From NCBI RefSeq assembly GCF_010020825.1, contig NZ_JAACJE010000001.1:2356001-2420000 (forward strand): DNA of 64,000 bases, written 5' to 3'. Source of the stretch: Acidovorax sp. 210-6. Its GTDB lineage: Bacteria > Pseudomonadota > Gammaproteobacteria > Burkholderiales > Burkholderiaceae_C. The translations under genes and the position numbers were made by a program. The notes under the pieces are model-generated. The model saw nothing but the letters and a program-made list of their open reading frames with translations, was not told the DNA's origin and ran no database searches. Positions 20,708-28,122 of this stretch are shown one piece after another. Numbering within the stretch: position 1 is the first letter of the stretch; each line of letters begins with the position of its first letter.

Positions 20708-21232
20708 TCAGCCGATCTTGCGCAGGCCGCTCTTGAAGCGGCGGGCGTTCTCGATGTAATGCAGCGCGCTCAGGCGCAGGCCCTCCATCTGCTCGGGCGT
20801 CAGTTGGCGCACCACCTTGGCAGGGCTGCCGATGATCATGGAGCCGTCGGGAAATTCCTTGCCCTCGGTCACCAGCGCACCAGCACCCACCAGGCAGTTC
20901 TTGCCGATCTTGGCACCATTGAGAATGACGGCACCAATGCCGATGAGCGATTCATCGCCGATGGTGCAGCCATGCAGCATGACCTGGTGGCCCACGGTCA
21001 CGCGCTCGCCCACCACCAGGGGCTTGCCGTAGTCGGCGTGCAGCACACTGGCGTCCTGGATGTTGGAGCCCGCGCCGATGGTGATGCTCTCGGTATCCCC
21101 GCGCACCACGGTGCCAAACCACACGCTGGCGTCCTCGCCCAGCACCACCCGGCCCATGACCTGGGCGCTGTCCGCCACCCAGCTACTGGCAGCCATCTGG
21201 GGCGCCACACCGTCGAGTTCGTAGATTGCCAT
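20708..21232 (-). CDS. Gamma-carbonic anhydrase family protein
   Basis: Left-handed beta-helix protein of 174 residues with repeated hexapeptide turns (for example [20 protein letters not shown]). The putative metal-binding His residues are in [18 protein letters not shown]. The family (YrdA/CaiE/CamH-like) is a trimer and some members hydrate CO2; activity here is not proved. I used the ATG at 21232, which starts MAIYELDG as in relatives, not an in-frame ATG 15 codons upstream. Confidence 0.9.
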
Positions 21233-21438
21233 GTCCAGCACTCCCAAGCTGCCCTTGGTTACACAAAGCCCTGCCAACGGGCTTGGCAGCAGGGCCTAGA
21301 ATTGTAAGGATCACGCGCAACCCCGGCTGCGGGCAGGTTATGCAGGGCACTTTCTCGGCGACAGTCCCTTGGTGCCCACCATCTTTACAATCTGCGCCCT
21401 CCCGCACGCATCGCACCTCCCTCTTGGAAAGCCTTTTC

Positions 21439-22707
21439 ATGTCAAGCACCCCAGTTCCCGCCGGTCAAGCGACCACCTCGCAGGACGCCAGCCTGACATC
21501 CGTGGCGCTGATCGCGCGCCAGGCGATCGTGAACTCCCAGCACGTCGTCATCGGCTACGAGCTGTTCAACCGTTCGCGCTCAGGCCAGGCCCACACCGCC
21601 GCCAGCGATGTGGCGCTGGTGTTCACGGCCCTGTCGCACGCTGGTTCGGATGAGCTGGTCGGCAAGAAGCTCATCTTCGTCAATTGCACCCACGAGAGTC
21701 TGACCGGCGGCCACCTGGAGTTGGTCGACCCCGAGAAGGTGGTACTCGAAATCTCCCCGCTGGGCCATGCGGCCTCCGAGGAAGTGGCTGCGCGACTGCC
21801 CATCCTGCAAGGCCTGCGCGACCGCGGATTCCACCTGGCGTTCAACCATACGGTGCTGCAGTCGCCCTATGCAGCCTGGCTGCCCTTGGCCGACTACATC
21901 AAGTTCGATCTGTCGGTGCTGGCCCAGGACCAGCTGGCCGTACTCCTCAACTATGCCAACCGCCGCAGCCAAGCGGAGCTGATTGCCGAAAAGATCGAGA
22001 ACGCGCAACAGTACGACTTTGCATCCAGCCAGGGCGTGCAGATGTTTCAGGGCTATTGGTTTGCGCGCCCTTCCCTGGTGCAGACCAAGCTGGTGGCGCC
22101 GTCACAGGCGGCCATTCTGGAACTCATCAATCTGGTGCGCAAACAGGCCAGCACGGACGAGATCGAAGAAGTGCTCAAAAAGGACGCCGGCCTGGCCTTC
22201 AACCTCATGCGTCTCATCAACTCTGCAGGTTTGGGCATCTCGCGTGAGATCACTTCGTTCCGCCAGGCCGTCATGCTGCTGGGCCTGAAAAAGCTGTTCC
22301 GCTGGGCCGCATTGCTGCTGACGGCCTCGCGCGCCAACGGCACGCCATCGTCTGTGGGGCAGACCGCCGTCGTGCGCGGCCGCCTGATGGAGCTGCTGGC
22401 CCTGGAAACCGTCTCCCAGGAAGAGGCCGACGAGGCCTTTGTGGTTGGTATCTTTTCGCTGCTGGACGTCATGCTTCGCATGCCCATGGAAGAAGCGCTC
22501 GCTCTGTTGAGCGTTCCGGAAGCAGTGCGCGCCGCATTGCTGCACCGGGAGGGCTTTCTGGGCGATCTGCTCAAGCTGGCCGAGGCCTGTGAGTCCAGCG
22601 ATGACGACGCCTTCCACCATGCCGCCAGCACCTTGCACCTGAGCAGCGCACAGATCAATGGCGCCCACCTCCAAGCCCTGGCCTGGGCCGACCATGTGAC
22701 CGACTGA
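21439..22707 (+). CDS. EAL-HDOD signalling protein, tandem copy 1
   Basis: A 422-residue cytoplasmic regulator. The EAL-like domain (residues about 20-210) starts IARQAIVNSQHVVIGYELFNRS, so the usual EAL triplet reads ELF and most catalytic acidic residues are missing; c-di-GMP hydrolysis is unlikely. The HDOD domain (about 220-400) has LINLVRKQASTDEIEEVLKKD and LGLKKLFRWAALLL. Relatives such as CdgJ affect motility and c-di-GMP signalling without enzyme activity. An almost full-length paralogue follows 38 bp downstream. Confidence 0.9.
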   Translation: MSSTPVPAGQATTSQDASLTSVALIARQAIVNSQHVVIGYELFNRSRSGQAHTAASDVALVFTALSHAGSDELVGKKLIFVNCTHESLTGGHLELVDPEKVVLEISPLGHAASEEVAARLPILQGLRDRGFHLAFNHTVLQSPYAAWLPLADYIKFDLSVLAQDQLAVLLNYANRRSQAELIAEKIENAQQYDFASSQGVQMFQGYWFARPSLVQTKLVAPSQAAILELINLVRKQASTDEIEEVLKKDAGLAFNLMRLINSAGLGISREITSFRQAVMLLGLKKLFRWAALLLTASRANGTPSSVGQTAVVRGRLMELLALETVSQEEADEAFVVGIFSLLDVMLRMPMEEALALLSVPEAVRAALLHREGFLGDLLKLAEACESSDDDAFHHAASTLHLSSAQINGAHLQALAWADHVTD

Positions 22708-22745
22708 AGCGCCTAGAATTGAAGGGTTCCATCGACCCAAGCACC

Positions 22746-24017
22746 ATGTCCAGCACCCAAGAAGAATCCCCCTCCACGCCAGAGCTGCCGCCGGAAGACG
22801 GACTGGCCGCACTGATCGCCCGCCAGGCCATCGTGGATGAACACCGTGCCGTCTTTGGCTACGAGCTGTTTGACCGCACCACGGCGCTGGATTCGCACAC
22901 CGCCGCCAGCGATGCCGCACTGCTGTTCAACGCCTTGTCGCATGGCGGCGCAGAGGCCTTGGTGGGCAAGAAGCTGGTGTTCATCAACTGCACCCACGAA
23001 AGCCTGGCCAGCGGCCACCTGGAACTGGTGCATCCGGACAAGGTGGTGCTGGAGATTCCCCCGCTGCCGGACGGTGCCACCCCCGAAGACATCGAAGCCT
23101 GCGTGGTCCAGTTCGAGGCCTTGAACAAGCGCGGGTTCAAGCTGGCGTTCAACCAGAATGTGCTGCGCAAAGCGTATGCGTGCTGGTTGCCGCGCGCCGC
23201 TTACATCAAGCTGGACATGAAGGCCTTCAAGCCCGAGCTGGCGGCTCCCCTGGTCAAATTTGCCAGCACCAACAGCCAGGCCAAACTGGTGGCCGAAAAG
23301 GTGGAAACGGCCGAGCAGTACCAGCTCATGGCAGACCTGGGTGTCAAGCTGTTCCAGGGCTTCTGGTTTGCGCAGCCCTCGCTGGTGCAGACCAAAACGC
23401 TGCGGCCATCGCAGGCCATCATCATCCAGTTGATCAACCTGATCCGCAAACAGGCCAGCTCTTCCGAAATCGAGGATCTGCTCAAAAAGGATCCGACACT
23501 CTCGTTCAACCTGCTGCGCTTCATCAATTCCTCGGGCTTTGGTCTGCAGTGCGAAATCACCTCCTTCAAACATGCGGTGATGATCCTGGGCCTCAAAAAG
23601 CTGTTCCGCTGGGCAGCCCTGCTGCTGACCACCTCGCGCAACAGCGGATCGGCACCGGCCATAGGCACCACGGCGGTGGTGCGCGGGCGCCTGATGGAAC
23701 TGCTGGCGACCGAACTGCTGTCCCCCGAGGAATGCGACAACGCCTTTGTGGTCGGTGTGTTTTCGCTGCTCGACGCCATGCTGGGCATACCGCTGGACAA
23801 AGCCCTGGAATCCGTGGCGCTGCCCCAGCCCGTGATCGATGCCTTGCTGCACAACTCGGGCGTGTACGCCCCCTTCCTGGCATTGACCAAAGCCTGTGAG
23901 AGTGGCGACGAAGCCGCCTTTGCCCACAACACCGAGCTGCTGCACCTCTCCGGCCGCCAGGTCAACATGGCCCACCTGGAAGCGCTGGCCTGGGCCGACA
24001 GCCTGGAAGCCGCGTAA
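22746..24017 (+). CDS. EAL-HDOD signalling protein, tandem copy 2
   Basis: A 423-residue paralogue of the preceding gene, more than half identical by eye, with the same order of a degenerate EAL domain (GYELFDRT) and an HDOD domain (LINLIRKQASSSEIEDLLKKD, LGLKKLFRWAALLL). The N terminus (SSTQEESPSTPELPPEDG) differs. I used the ATG at 22746. Tandem duplication with both copies intact suggests paired or diverged signalling functions, or hetero-oligomers. Confidence 0.9.
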   Translation: MSSTQEESPSTPELPPEDGLAALIARQAIVDEHRAVFGYELFDRTTALDSHTAASDAALLFNALSHGGAEALVGKKLVFINCTHESLASGHLELVHPDKVVLEIPPLPDGATPEDIEACVVQFEALNKRGFKLAFNQNVLRKAYACWLPRAAYIKLDMKAFKPELAAPLVKFASTNSQAKLVAEKVETAEQYQLMADLGVKLFQGFWFAQPSLVQTKTLRPSQAIIIQLINLIRKQASSSEIEDLLKKDPTLSFNLLRFINSSGFGLQCEITSFKHAVMILGLKKLFRWAALLLTTSRNSGSAPAIGTTAVVRGRLMELLATELLSPEECDNAFVVGVFSLLDAMLGIPLDKALESVALPQPVIDALLHNSGVYAPFLALTKACESGDEAAFAHNTELLHLSGRQVNMAHLEALAWADSLEAA

Positions 24018-24028
24018 TCACTGCACAC

Positions 24029-24955
24029 TCACCCGCGTGGGTGGTGCTGCGCGTGCAACTGGCGCAGGCGCTCACGCGCCACATGGGTATAGATGGTGGT
24101 GGTGGAAATATCCGCATGCCCCAACAGCAACTGCACCACGCGCAGATCAGCCCCATGGTTGAGCAAATGGGTGGCAAAGGCATGGCGCAGCGTGTGGGGT
24201 GACAGCGGTGCGGTAATGCCCGCCAAGCCCGCGTACTTCTTGACCAGCATCCAGAACATCACGCGTGTCATGCCCGCCCCACGGGCAGTCACAAACAGGT
24301 CGTCAGTTTGCTGCCCGGCCAGTATGGCCGATCGCGCCTCCTGCAGATAGCGCTCCAGCCACTGGCGCGCCACCTCGCCAAAGGGCACCAGGCGCTCCTT
24401 GCTGCCCTTGCCCAGCACGCGCAGCACACCCTCGTTCATGCCCAGGTGCCAGGTCTTGAGCGCCACCAACTCCGACACCCGCAGTCCACTGGCGTACATC
24501 AGTTCCAGCATGGCACGGTCACGCAGGCCCAAGGGCGTGCCCACATCGGGCGCAGCCAGCAGGGCCTCCACCTGCGCTTGCGACAGCGTCTTGGGCACAC
24601 GCAAGGGCTGGCGCGCTGCCTGCAAGCGCAGCGTAGGGTCTTGCGCCACAAGGCGCTCGCGCAGCGCCCAGCCAAAAAATCGCTTGAACACCGTGAGCCG
24701 CCGGTTGGCCGTGGTGGCCCGGGTCTGCGCATGGCGATAGGCAAAGTACGCCTGCAAATCGGTCTCCTGCACCTGCAGCAGGCCCTTGCCGTGCGGTGCC
24801 AGCCAGCGCACGAGCGCGATCAGGTCACGCCGGTAGGCATCCAACGTATTGCGTGCCAGGCCCTCTTCGAGCCACAGCGCATCGGCAAAGGCGTCGATCT
24901 GCGATCCGTCGGGAATGCCAGAAAGGGCGGAGTCAGCGTGGGGCGTGGGCGGCAT
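24029..24955 (-). CDS. xerD: Site-specific tyrosine recombinase XerD
   Basis: With XerC, resolves chromosome dimers at dif during division. The 308-residue protein has an N-terminal SAM-like core-binding domain and the full catalytic set: Arg159 (SGLRVSEL), Lys183 (GKGSKERL), His254 and Arg257 (PHTLRHAFATH), His280 (LLGHADIST) and Tyr289 (TIYTHV). It converges with the EAL-HDOD pair. No attachment site or cargo is nearby, so it is the housekeeping recombinase rather than a phage integrase. Confidence 0.93.
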   Translation of the reverse strand: MPPTPHADSALSGIPDGSQIDAFADALWLEEGLARNTLDAYRRDLIALVRWLAPHGKGLLQVQETDLQAYFAYRHAQTRATTANRRLTVFKRFFGWALRERLVAQDPTLRLQAARQPLRVPKTLSQAQVEALLAAPDVGTPLGLRDRAMLELMYASGLRVSELVALKTWHLGMNEGVLRVLGKGSKERLVPFGEVARQWLERYLQEARSAILAGQQTDDLFVTARGAGMTRVMFWMLVKKYAGLAGITAPLSPHTLRHAFATHLLNHGADLRVVQLLLGHADISTTTIYTHVARERLRQLHAQHHPRG

Positions 24956-25012
24956 ACAAAAGCAAGTTGCGCTATTCTGCCTTTTTTCACTCAACAGACA
25001 GGAGACAAAACA

Positions 25013-25972
25013 ATGCGCTGGATTCAGAAAATCAGCTTGTGTCTGGGACTGGGGGCCGTCGCCATGGCCTCGGTGACCCACGCCCAACAACAGCAGTTTG
25101 TCAACGTGCTCACGGGCGGCCAAAGCGGCGTGTACTACCCGCTCGGGGTAGCACTGTCGCAGGTGTATGCCAAGTCCATTCCCAATGCACGCGCCACTGC
25201 GCAGGTGACCAAGGCTTCGGCCGAGAACCTCAATCTGCTGCAGGCCGGGCGCGGTGAGCTGGCCTTCACCCTGGGCGATGCACTGTCCGATGCCTGGAAG
25301 GGCGACGCCGAGGCCGGTTTCCCCAAAAAGCTGGACAAGTTGCGGGGCCTTTCCGCCACCTACAACAACTACATCCAGATCGTGGCCAATGCCGACGCAG
25401 GCATCAAGACGCTGGCCGATCTCAAGGGCAAGCGCATTTCGGTGGGCGCGGCCAAGTCGGGCACAGAACTCAACGCGCGCGCCATTTTCAAGGCCGCCGG
25501 CATGAGCTACGCCGATCTGGCCAAGGTGGAATACCTGCCCTTTGGCGAGTCGGTGGAACTGATCAAGAACCGCCAGCTTGACGCCACGCTGCAGTCGGCG
25601 GGCCTGGGCGTGGCCTCCATCCGTGACCTGGCCACAGCCGTCAAGATCGTGGTGGTTCCGGTACCTGCCGATGTGGTGGCCAAGGTGGGTGATGCGGCCT
25701 ACCAAGGCGCGGTGATTCCAGCCAATACCTACACGGGCCAGACGCAGGACGTACCCACGGCCGCCATTCCCAACTTTCTGGTGACGCACAGTGGTGTCTC
25801 CGACGAGCTGGCCTACCAGATGGCCAAGCAGATGTACGAGAACCTGGACACACTGCACGCCGCCCACAATGCCGCGAAGGCCATTGCACGCGACAACGCC
25901 ATCAAGGGCATGCCCGTGCCGTTGCACCCAGGTGCGGAGCGCTATTACAAGGAAGTGGGGCTGATCAAGTAA
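25013..25972 (+). CDS. TAXI family TRAP transporter solute-binding protein
   Basis: Periplasmic binding protein of 319 residues that delivers a small acid to the TRAP permease. An N-terminal signal peptide (MRWIQKISLCLGLGAVAMAS to THAQ) is cleaved near residue 24. The mature part shows the TAXI motifs LTGGQSGVYYPLG, TKASAENLNLLQAG and KGKRISVGAAKSGTE. AGGAG precedes the ATG by 7-8 bases. The ligand is unknown; TAXI proteins have been linked to glutamate, 2-oxoglutarate and other dicarboxylates. Confidence 0.93.
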   Translation: MRWIQKISLCLGLGAVAMASVTHAQQQQFVNVLTGGQSGVYYPLGVALSQVYAKSIPNARATAQVTKASAENLNLLQAGRGELAFTLGDALSDAWKGDAEAGFPKKLDKLRGLSATYNNYIQIVANADAGIKTLADLKGKRISVGAAKSGTELNARAIFKAAGMSYADLAKVEYLPFGESVELIKNRQLDATLQSAGLGVASIRDLATAVKIVVVPVPADVVAKVGDAAYQGAVIPANTYTGQTQDVPTAAIPNFLVTHSGVSDELAYQMAKQMYENLDTLHAAHNAAKAIARDNAIKGMPVPLHPGAERYYKEVGLIK

Positions 25973-25991
25973 GCAACCCCAGCGAGCCCCT

Positions 25992-26050
25992 CCCCCCGGC
26001 GCATCCCCCTGCCGGGGGGCTCCCATGGAAACGGCCCTGTCAGAGCCGTT
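25992..26050 (+). promoter_or_regulatory. Two hairpins between the TAXI and TRAP genes
   Basis: A perfect 9-bp GC stem CCCCCCGGC (25992-26000) / GCCGGGGGG (26011-26019) is followed by AACGGC (26030-26035) / GCCGTT (26045-26050) with a weak T-rich end. They may attenuate read-through so that the binding protein is made in excess over the permease; this is inferred from the layout. Confidence 0.55.
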
Positions 26051-26076
26051 CTTTGTCTTGACTTCAAGAGACGCCG

Positions 26077-28122
26077 ATGACCGCTGCGCCCCCAACGCAA
26101 CCCGACAGCCATGGCTCCCCACTGCGCGGTGCGCTGTTCGGGGTGGCCATCCTTTTTTCAAGCTATCAGCTCTGGATGGCAGCCTTCCATCCGCTGTCCA
26201 GCCAGGTGATCCGTGCCATCCATGTGGGCTTTGTGCTGCTCATGGTATTTGCGCTGTCGCCCCCCTTCAAAAACGCATCGCCCACCCTGGCACGCTGGGG
26301 CCGGATCCTGGGCTGGGTGCTGGGGATCACAGGCTTTGTTTTCAGCCTGTACCACTGGGTGTACGAGGCCAACCTGACGCAGCGCGCAGGTGAGCTCATC
26401 CCCATGGACTGGGTCGTTGGCGTAACGCTGGTGCTCCTGGTCTTCGAGGCCGCGCGCCGCGCCATGGGCTGGGGGCTGCCGCTGATCTGCGCGACGTTCC
26501 TGCTGTATGCGTTGTTCGGCCAACACCTGCCGGGCATGCTGGCACACAGGGGCTTTGGCATCGACCAGATCGTGAGCACGTTGGCCTTTGGCACCGAAGG
26601 CATCTACGGCACGCCCACGTATGTGTCATCCAGCTACATCTTCCTGTTCATCCTGTTCGGTGCCTTTCTGGAACAGGCGGGCATGATCCGCCTGTTCAAC
26701 GACTTTGCGCTGGGCACCGTGGGCCACACGCGCGGCGGCCCGGCCAAGGTGTCGGTGATTTCATCGGCGCTGATGGGCACCATCAACGGCTCGGGCGTGG
26801 CCAACGTGGTCACCACCGGCCAGTTCACCATTCCGCTGATGAAGCGCTTTGGTTACAGCCCCGCGTTTGCGGGCGGCGTGGAAGCCACAGCGAGCATGGG
26901 CGGGCAGATCATGCCGCCGGTGATGGGCGCCGTCGCATTCATCATGGCAGAAACGATCAATGTGCCCTATGTGGACATCGTCAAGGCCGCCGTCATCCCA
27001 GCCATTCTGTACTTCTTCACCGCCTTCTGGATGGTGCACCTGGAAGCTGGGCGCAAGGGCCTGATGGGCCTGCCCAAGGACGAATGCCCCAACCCCTGGA
27101 CGGCCGTGCGCGAGCGCTGGTACCTGCTGCTGCCGCTGGCCGGGCTGGTGGCGCTGCTGTTCTCCGGCTACACGCCCATGTTCTCGGGCACGGTGGGGCT
27201 GGCGCTCACGGTGGTGTTGATCTTTGGCGCGGCCGTCATCAGCGGGGTCAAGGGTCTCACGCTGCGTGGCTTGTTCTGGGTGCTGCTGGGCCTGGCCTGT
27301 GGGGGGTTCTTTCACTTTGGCGTGGGCACCTTCATGGTGGTCGTCGCGTTGCTGGTGGCATTGACCTACATCCGCCGCACCGGGCAGGATGCCCGCCAAC
27401 TGGCCGTGACCGCCCTGGCCGACGGCGCCCGCCACGCGCTGCCCGTGGCCATTGCCTGCGCGCTGGTGGGGGTGATCATCGGTGTCATCAACCTCACCGG
27501 CGTGGCGGCCGAACTGGGCGGGCGCATCATCGCGGTGGGCGAGAAAAGCCTGTTCCTGGCGCTGTTCCTGACCATGGTCACCTGCCTGGTGCTGGGCATG
27601 GGCATTCCCACCATTCCCAACTACATCATCACCAGCTCGCTCGCCGCGCCGGTGCTGCTGCAACTGGGCGTGCCGCTGATCGTCTCGCACATGTTTGTCT
27701 TCTACTTCGGCATCATGGCCGACCTGACGCCGCCTGTGGCCCTGGCAGCCTTTGCCGCGGCGCCCATCGCACGCGAGTCCGGGCTCAAGATCGGGCTGCA
27801 GGCGGTGCGCATCGCCATTGCGGGCTTCATCGTTCCCTACATGGCCGTGTACAGCCCTGCACTCATGCTGCAGGGCGGCGACTGGCTGGCCACCGCCTGG
27901 GTGGTGTTCAAGGCGCTGGTGGCCATCGGCATGTGGGGCGCGGGTGCCATCGGCTTCCTGCTGGGGCCGCTGAACTGGCTGGAGCGCTGTGTGGCCATCG
28001 GTTCGGCCAGCTTCCTGGTGGTAGCCGTGCCGCTGACGGACGAAATCGGTCTGGCGGCGGTCTCCCTGTTCCTGGTCTGGCATGTCTGGCGCAAGCGCCA
28101 GCGGGCCGCGCAGCCGGCCTGA
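26077..28122 (+). CDS. TRAP transporter 4TM/12TM fused permease
   Basis: Inner-membrane symporter subunit of 681 residues in which the small (DctQ-like) and large (DctM-like) subunits are fused, as usual with TAXI systems. Many hydrophobic segments are visible. DctM signatures include GGPAKVSVISSALMGTINGSG and ATASMGGQIMPPVMGAVAFIMAE in two inverted halves. It lies between its binding protein and a DUF1850 gene, forming a complete TAXI-TRAP cassette. Confidence 0.95.
   Translation: MTAAPPTQPDSHGSPLRGALFGVAILFSSYQLWMAAFHPLSSQVIRAIHVGFVLLMVFALSPPFKNASPTLARWGRILGWVLGITGFVFSLYHWVYEANLTQRAGELIPMDWVVGVTLVLLVFEAARRAMGWGLPLICATFLLYALFGQHLPGMLAHRGFGIDQIVSTLAFGTEGIYGTPTYVSSSYIFLFILFGAFLEQAGMIRLFNDFALGTVGHTRGGPAKVSVISSALMGTINGSGVANVVTTGQFTIPLMKRFGYSPAFAGGVEATASMGGQIMPPVMGAVAFIMAETINVPYVDIVKAAVIPAILYFFTAFWMVHLEAGRKGLMGLPKDECPNPWTAVRERWYLLLPLAGLVALLFSGYTPMFSGTVGLALTVVLIFGAAVISGVKGLTLRGLFWVLLGLACGGFFHFGVGTFMVVVALLVALTYIRRTGQDARQLAVTALADGARHALPVAIACALVGVIIGVINLTGVAAELGGRIIAVGEKSLFLALFLTMVTCLVLGMGIPTIPNYIITSSLAAPVLLQLGVPLIVSHMFVFYFGIMADLTPPVALAAFAAAPIARESGLKIGLQAVRIAIAGFIVPYMAVYSPALMLQGGDWLATAWVVFKALVAIGMWGAGAIGFLLGPLNWLERCVAIGSASFLVVAVPLTDEIGLAAVSLFLVWHVWRKRQRAAQPA

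Follow-up and report, generated by a model that had tools for sequence, protein, structure and literature searches.

Why should bacteria keep, side by side, two genes that look like phosphodiesterases of cyclic di-GMP (c-di-GMP) but have lost residues that such an enzyme needs? The question is raised by two adjacent genes, here called A and B, in a 64,000-nucleotide stretch of Acidovorax sp. 210-6 (contig NZ_JAACJE010000001.1, positions 2,356,001 to 2,420,000 of the forward strand; hereafter the window). They lie on the same strand, 38 bp apart, and each encodes an N-terminal EAL domain followed by a C-terminal HDOD domain, which is the architecture of the YuxH/ZpdA family. The first-pass annotation had described them as two full-length paralogues in tandem, and this was borne out, as the proteins share 59% identity across an alignment of 397 positions (E = 2e-172). 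We propose tentatively, with a confidence somewhat short of even, that A and B are non-catalytic, pocket-keeping, c-di-GMP-responsive regulators that divide sensor and output duties between them and are linked to motility. Both EAL domains barely pass the Pfam cut-off of 31.3 bits (A, 34.2; B, 31.5), and both HDOD domains pass theirs of 22.9 bits (51.9 and 47.7). The HDOD domains had been called intact, which overstates the Pfam result, as only profile positions 11-128 in A and 8-126 in B are matched out of 196. Three further HDOD genes of the same genome cover positions 1-196, 1-195, and 2-191 with scores of 124-148 bits, and the genome (4.2 Mb, completeness 100) holds, beside A, B, and these three, one remote relative with an HDOD match. 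No NCBIfam family scored above its cut-off for the pair, and a PDB sequence search with copy B returned weak HDOD and EAL matches (best E 0.0012).

The residues of the EAL pocket were located by alignment with the EAL motifs, the metal-ligand roles being taken from the literature (PMC5301497) and the other roles from general knowledge. The nearest outgroups, from other Burkholderiales families (L117-L120, 41-45% identical), have the full catalytic set, namely GYELLFR, N, E, DDF, K, E, and Q, where the window has GYELFNR, N, E, N-H, K, E, and Q in copy A and GYELFDR, N, E, N-Q, K, E, and Q in copy B. Residue frequencies were weighted, the 105 A rows and 107 B rows counting as an effective 36 and 40, a second copy of 232 amino acids at a contig end (L122) having been dropped as short. 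The EAL Glu, the Asn, the Lys, the second Glu of AEKVE, and the Gln are found in 100% of both copies, the third-motif Glu in 97% of A and 94% of B, and the first Glu of AEKVE in 94% of A and 100% of B. The DDF loop varies: its first Asp position (D1) is Asn in 81% of A, and Asn in 40% and Asp in 40% of B, and its second (D2) is His in 84% of A and Gln in 88% of B, with Asp at D2 in none of the 105 A rows and none of the 107 B rows. The variants seen were N, D, S, G, T, and P at D1 and H, Q, S, and E at D2. In EAL enzymes of known structure, both Asp bind the catalytic metals (PMC5301497). Thus, A and B possess the pocket Glu, Asn, Glu, Lys, Glu, and Gln of a catalytic EAL phosphodiesterase and lack the two DDFGTG Asp that serve metals M1 and M2; the loss of this pair argues against catalysis, and the retention of the remaining pocket residues argues for ligand binding.

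The first-pass annotation had based its non-enzymatic reading on GYELF, which was said to replace the catalytic EAL context. GYELF does occur in both copies, but we rejected it as the catalytic defect, because the metal-binding Glu and the ExxxR Arg are present (the Arg in all 103 rows of each copy, repeated loci included), the active ZpdA has ELL at this place (PMC12607878), and the outgroups L117-L120 read GYELLFR. The non-enzymatic reading itself is supported, through the missing DDF Asp pair. With regard to these counts, 15 of the 103 loci repeat the pair of another locus, which inflates the raw residue, pairwise-difference, promoter-box, and ExxxR counts and leaves the dereplicated constraint tests below unaffected. 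The family alignments were made without 12 loci with a repeated, remote, or cut gene (L001, L002, L003, L025, L027, L035, L036, L037, L124, L140, L141, and L142), one of which, L025, is a valid pair.

The two proteins may still be phosphodiesterases if H137, Q137, or N/D136 stands in for the lost Asp, in which case the enzyme would be slow or metal-shifted. His can bind metal, and D1 is Asp in part of B, both of which count for this possibility, as does the shared architecture. YuxH, which we take to be the Bacillus phosphodiesterase known for this architecture, is a single gene, unlike the tandem A and B. Like A and B, it is an EAL-HDOD protein, and it is treated as a phosphodiesterase, its deletion in B. 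velezensis raising c-di-GMP and lowering motility (PMC12029170). ZpdA (VC0515) of Vibrio cholerae, whose architecture a Bacillus phosphodiesterase shares, is an active Mn2+-dependent EAL-HDOD phosphodiesterase with an ELL motif (PMC12607878). A and B resemble ZpdA in having an N-terminal EAL domain with an ELx motif and a C-terminal HDOD domain; unlike ZpdA, which as described retains its metal residues, they lack the DDF Asp pair and are present in two copies. Nevertheless, the lost Asp are the very residues that coordinate the catalytic metals, and D1 and D2 vary while the other pocket residues hardly vary, so that we regard persistent enzymatic activity as quite unlikely.

The pocket can also be compared with that of EAL domains that bind c-di-GMP without cleaving it. 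The degenerate EAL domains of FimX and LapD bind c-di-GMP and contain ExLxR (PMC10333796), and FimX, which has no DDFGTG and is inactive, was crystallized with c-di-GMP and no metal (PMC5301497). A and B share with FimX the loss of the DDFGTG Asp pair, as stated for that protein, and differ from FimX and LapD in reading ExFxR. The partner domains of FimX and LapD are different and are not known to include an HDOD domain. Alternatively, A and B could be regulators that bind proteins without binding any nucleotide, as YdiV acts on FlhD4C2, the retained pocket being merely structural. YdiV, a catalytically dead EAL protein that acts on motility via FlhD4C2, shows that a degenerate EAL domain can work through protein binding; it does not bind c-di-GMP and has lost 8 of 10 conserved residues (PMC3510510). 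Consistent with such a role, Phe takes the place of the Leu of ExLxR in 98 of 103 A and 93 of 103 B, with Tyr in the other 10 B, and all nine distant single-copy loci examined (L125, L169-L172, and L174-L177) have lost the EAL pocket motifs and kept the HDOD half. However, although A and B have a degenerate EAL domain like YdiV, they retain most of the pocket, with E, N, K, E, Q, and R invariant, and upkeep of the fold alone would not predict this. A purely protein-binding function is in our view rather unlikely.

If A and B have divided their duties, as the first-pass annotation suggested from the retention of both copies, selection should bear differently on their domains. Over 100 loci, some of them repeated, and after removal of comparisons with A copies at least 93% identical (a filter on A alone), the median pairwise difference in the EAL half was 0.218 for A-A and 0.289 for B-B, and in the HDOD half 0.271 for A-A and 0.172 for B-B. 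The same crossing pattern was found on one tree of 62 dereplicated genomes without the A-identity filter, the long branches L033, L034, and L182 being left out here and in the omega tests: the fitted tree length of the EAL half was 10.41 in A and 13.04 in B (A/B 0.80) and that of the HDOD half 10.11 and 7.63 (A/B 1.33), and parsimony steps per site in A and B were 6.31 and 7.70 for EAL and 7.50 and 4.38 for HDOD. The copy-by-domain interaction was reached by 0 of 20000 column permutations, and per-domain Wilcoxon tests over columns gave p = 0.015 for EAL and p = 1e-10 for HDOD. The fast region of the B EAL domain comprises residues ~82-180, around the DDF loop.

Organism groups based on names, which are not clades, agreed in direction, and four disjoint true clades covered 51 of the 62 tips. 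In the clade of the window (Simplicispira, Giesbergeria, and neighbours; 21 tips), parsimony steps in A/B were 246/511 for EAL and 393/303 for HDOD (0 of 5000 permutations); in Acidovorax plus Extensimonas (11 tips), they were 134/164 and 158/92 (5 of 5000); in Comamonas plus Delftia (9 tips), 211/215 and 257/118 (0 of 5000); and in Diaphorobacter, Alicycliphilus, and others (10 tips), 222/248 and 306/166 (0 of 5000). The HDOD half is thus clearly better conserved in B in all four clades; in the EAL half, A is the better kept, by a wide margin in the clade of the window and a narrow one elsewhere, which makes this the weaker contrast. Omega was estimated for 39 genome pairs, each distinct genome being used once, although the paths may share branches, and the medians were 0.108 for A-EAL, 0.124 for A-HDOD, 0.153 for B-EAL, and 0.086 for B-HDOD, showing purifying selection on both copies. 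In the HDOD half, omega was higher in A in 28 of the 39 pairs (p = 0.009). Within genomes, sliding comparison of A and B gives a highest identity of 92.5%, for a 40-residue segment of the HDOD core; as there is no between-genome baseline for this value, we make no claim of gene conversion.

The phylogeny that the first-pass annotation had recommended for dating the duplication comprised 84 rows, under a mixture model, with the root at L117-L120. The A copies form one clade (support 100/99), and the B copies include a clade of 30 rows (96/94) with further B-like and single-copy lineages near the base, whose order the tree leaves open. Because Rhodoferax, Xylophilus, Ramlibacter, Curvibacter, Comamonas, Delftia, Acidovorax, and Simplicispira have both copies, the duplication is older than the split of these genera. 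The tree indicates that it is ancient and common to Acidovorax, Comamonas, Delftia, Rhodoferax, and others at one locus, though a few single-copy lineages may predate it. A recent local duplication was rejected, since the identity is only 59% and each copy tracks its own clade across many genera. Gene order around the pair is widely shared among relatives. In a sample of 250 genomes of the Genome Taxonomy Database (GTDB) family, homologues scoring 319 bits or more occurred in 71, of which 45 had the tandem pair, with A upstream in 42; the three exceptions, all of genus g75 (G262, G099, and G191), have the reverse order with a B-like copy first.

The first-pass annotation had named a pseudogene in sister strains as an observation that would refute its reading. 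In the genus of the window, both copies are full length and free of stops in 22 of 25 genomes, and in the other three, a contig end cuts one copy. The objection nevertheless holds in part. Pseudogenes do occur in Acidovorax soli (L059) and a related metagenome-assembled genome (MAG; L047), where A is a frameshifted remnant spread over several frames and no second A was found elsewhere on contigs of at least 3,000 bases. There are also single-copy lineages. Only A is left in genus g41 (assigned by the tree for G171 and G065, by best match for G244, and by genus and a similar score for G330 and G378), and only B in several genera; G232 carries, besides its B at the locus, a divergent gene of the A clade at another site. 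These pseudogenes and single-copy lineages indicate that parts of the family can dispense with the pair. They could also be taken to mean that A and B are redundant dosage copies in slow decay, with regions eroding at random, and the truncated and eroded forms of genus g70 and the small EAL difference in three of the four clades point the same way. Such decay, however, would hardly leave a median omega of 0.09-0.15 in every domain of each copy, an HDOD difference of the same sign in four clades, and long-term co-retention, and we give this explanation little credence.

Several further forms of the locus were seen among relatives. In genus g70, EAL-only fragments lie in the region of the carbonic-anhydrase-like (gCA) and XerC/D genes (L173:5216-5953, L183:7139-7753, and L184:6344-6955), with pocket motifs eroded in two, and the two genomes with eroded fragments also carry a B-like gene with an eroded EAL domain elsewhere (L151 and L152). 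Copy B of Comamonas testosteroni SWCO2 (L106:4914-5996) has a shortened frame with tblastn homology extending to 6212, which may reflect a frameshift or an assembly error. The nine distant single-copy relatives without EAL pocket motifs have an HDOD half ~40% identical to B, and none of the nine sits at the gCA-XerC/D locus. A homologue with a dead EAL and a retained HDOD domain does stand beside a XerC/D gene (53% identical) in another Burkholderiales family (L136:6003-7193), hinting that the genomic location may be older than the pair. Genus g83 (L162 and L165; G107 and G266) has three EAL-HDOD or HDOD relatives within ~8 kb, with strongly eroded EAL pockets, which suggests further local duplication.

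The two genes may also be transcribed separately. A -10-like CTAGAAT box is found in the A-B spacer at 54 of 91 loci, repeats included (shuffled mean 0.2), or 46 of 81 without repeated spacers, and CTACAAT upstream of A at 42 of 91 (shuffled mean 0.5), or 40 of 81 without repeats; CTAGAAT upstream of A occurs at 8 of 91 loci. A generic sigma-70 consensus scan of the window found zero sites. Each copy thus has its own conserved -10-like box, probably its own promoter, and these distinct boxes, together with the clear HDOD and weaker EAL contrast in constraint, support the division of labour suggested at first. An obligate A-B heterodimer, with pocket and output module on different subunits, would likewise agree with the differing domain constraint and with the adjacency of A and B in 45 of the 250 family genomes, A being first in 42 of the 45. 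But each copy also occurs alone, and as single-copy lineages of both kinds exist and A and B have separate promoter-like boxes, we judge such a dimer very unlikely.

A link to motility is suggested by genome content. Flagellin (PF00669) was found in 205 of the 250 family genomes, including 45 of 45 with the tandem pair against 160 of the 205 others (Fisher 7e-5, descent ignored). In an overlapping second sample of 397 genomes, among the matches listed, flagellin occurred in 115 of 120 genomes with a close homologue against 209 of 277 without, and the five flagellin-negative exceptions all belong to genus g41, which retains A only. One genome (G094) has only an EAL fragment at the locus and no flagellin; flagellin is present in two others of its genus, G188 and G259, which carry a B-like gene whose EAL domain is eroded. 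Acidovorax soli and the related MAG have a broken A, an intact B, and no flagellin. FliG was missing from each of these eight genomes without flagellin and was present in all six with flagellin that were checked. Thus, among lineages retaining part of the pair, three were found without flagellar genes, and the pair is broken in all three; further genomes of the family without flagellin are also without any close homologue. A rule that B implies a flagellum, which held in 115 of 115 cases in the second sample, had to be rejected on account of Acidovorax soli and the MAG, and the association is claimed for the intact pair. Researchers have found that the HDOD proteins SadB, GsmR, and I2285 affect motility (PMC6543031, PMC9040570). 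The co-occurrence with flagellin and FliG, which is what the comparison with GsmR and SadB consists of here, agrees with these roles. A and B contain an HDOD domain like GsmR, SadB, and I2285; SadB has a YbaK-like domain, and in the available parts of these sources, no EAL domain is mentioned for the three, unlike A and B.

Taken together, the proposed history would be as follows. An ancestral single EAL-HDOD c-di-GMP phosphodiesterase would have lost the two metal-binding DDF Asp and then, before the radiation of Acidovorax, Comamonas, and Rhodoferax, undergone tandem duplication. A and B would be pseudo-phosphodiesterases with a retained nucleotide pocket, probably receptors and not enzymes, whose duties diverged, the HDOD domain of B being held much tighter than that of A and, mainly in the clade of the window, the EAL domain of A tighter than that of B; separate promoters, as far as sequence tells, may serve them. 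We infer that A would surpass B as a c-di-GMP sensor and B surpass A as an output module, with an output that may bear on flagellar motility. A bolder version, in which two dead EAL-HDOD phosphodiesterases split one receptor, A keeping the EAL sensor while its HDOD domain drifts and B keeping the HDOD output while its EAL domain drifts, so as to form a joint c-di-GMP-gated flagellar switch that is dismantled on flagellum loss, seems to us unlikely.

Several observations weigh against the proposed history and roles of A and B. The EAL contrast is uneven, being marked in the clade of the window and small in the other three; omega of the EAL half follows the expected direction in only 25 of 39 pairs (p = 0.11), and the pair formed by the window and L008 agrees for EAL and disagrees for HDOD. 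Regarding the pocket, D1 is still Asp in a good part of B, and the receptor signature ExLxR reads ExFxR. As for motility, Acidovorax soli and the RXF3 MAG retain B without flagellar genes, so that B is not strictly tied to flagella, and many single-copy lineages, B-only genera among them, and Comamonas composti have flagella without the pair. Because the flagellin association is confounded by descent and the informative events number three, the link between pair and motility is a lead and not a proof.

The features of the locus are collected in Table 1. An in-frame TTG at 22719 is a possible alternative start of copy B. The gap between the carbonic-anhydrase-like gene and A is ~1 kb in many relatives and only ~160-180 bp in the window and L037; where the window has positions 21278-21438, L038, L039, L044, and L059 are among the relatives with an open reading frame that by sequence reading resembles a DUF455 ferritin-fold protein. 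Downstream, at ~25000-28122 of the window, a TAXI-type solute receptor and a large fused TRAP membrane protein (by sequence reading) follow, as they do beside the pair in L072, L096, L102, and L115.

Table 1 Features of the EAL-HDOD locus, in positions of the window
Feature	Positions	Strand	Remarks
Copy A, EAL-HDOD protein	21439..22707	+	422 aa, ATG; E41, R45, N82, E104, K155, E184, E187, Q204 present; DDF-loop DD replaced by N136-H137
Copy B, EAL-HDOD protein	22746..24017	+	423 aa, ATG; E40, R44, N81, E103, K155, E184, E187, Q204 present; DD replaced by N136-Q137
Gamma-carbonic-anhydrase-like gene	20708..21277	-	Conserved upstream neighbour; name from sequence reading
XerC/XerD-type tyrosine recombinase	24029..25000	-	Conserved downstream neighbour, convergent; 5' boundary approximate; name from sequence reading
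CTAGAAT box, A-B spacer	22713..22719	+	-10-like; probable own promoter of B
TACAAT box upstream of A	21386..21391	+	-10-like; probable promoter of A; window reads TTACAAT
Second CTAGAAT box upstream of A	21296..21302	+	Within 22-nt direct repeat shared with A-B spacer (82% identity)

In the open literature searched, to which most subscription journals do not belong, nothing was found that describes tandem EAL-HDOD genes in Comamonadaceae. To our knowledge, a sequence record of duplicate c-di-GMP proteins splitting sensor and output duties is rare. The role of the HDOD domain is described as not established (PMC6543031). Because the pair is found in many culturable genera, the domain constraint observed here yields simple predictions on the transition from enzyme to receptor and on the function of the HDOD domain.

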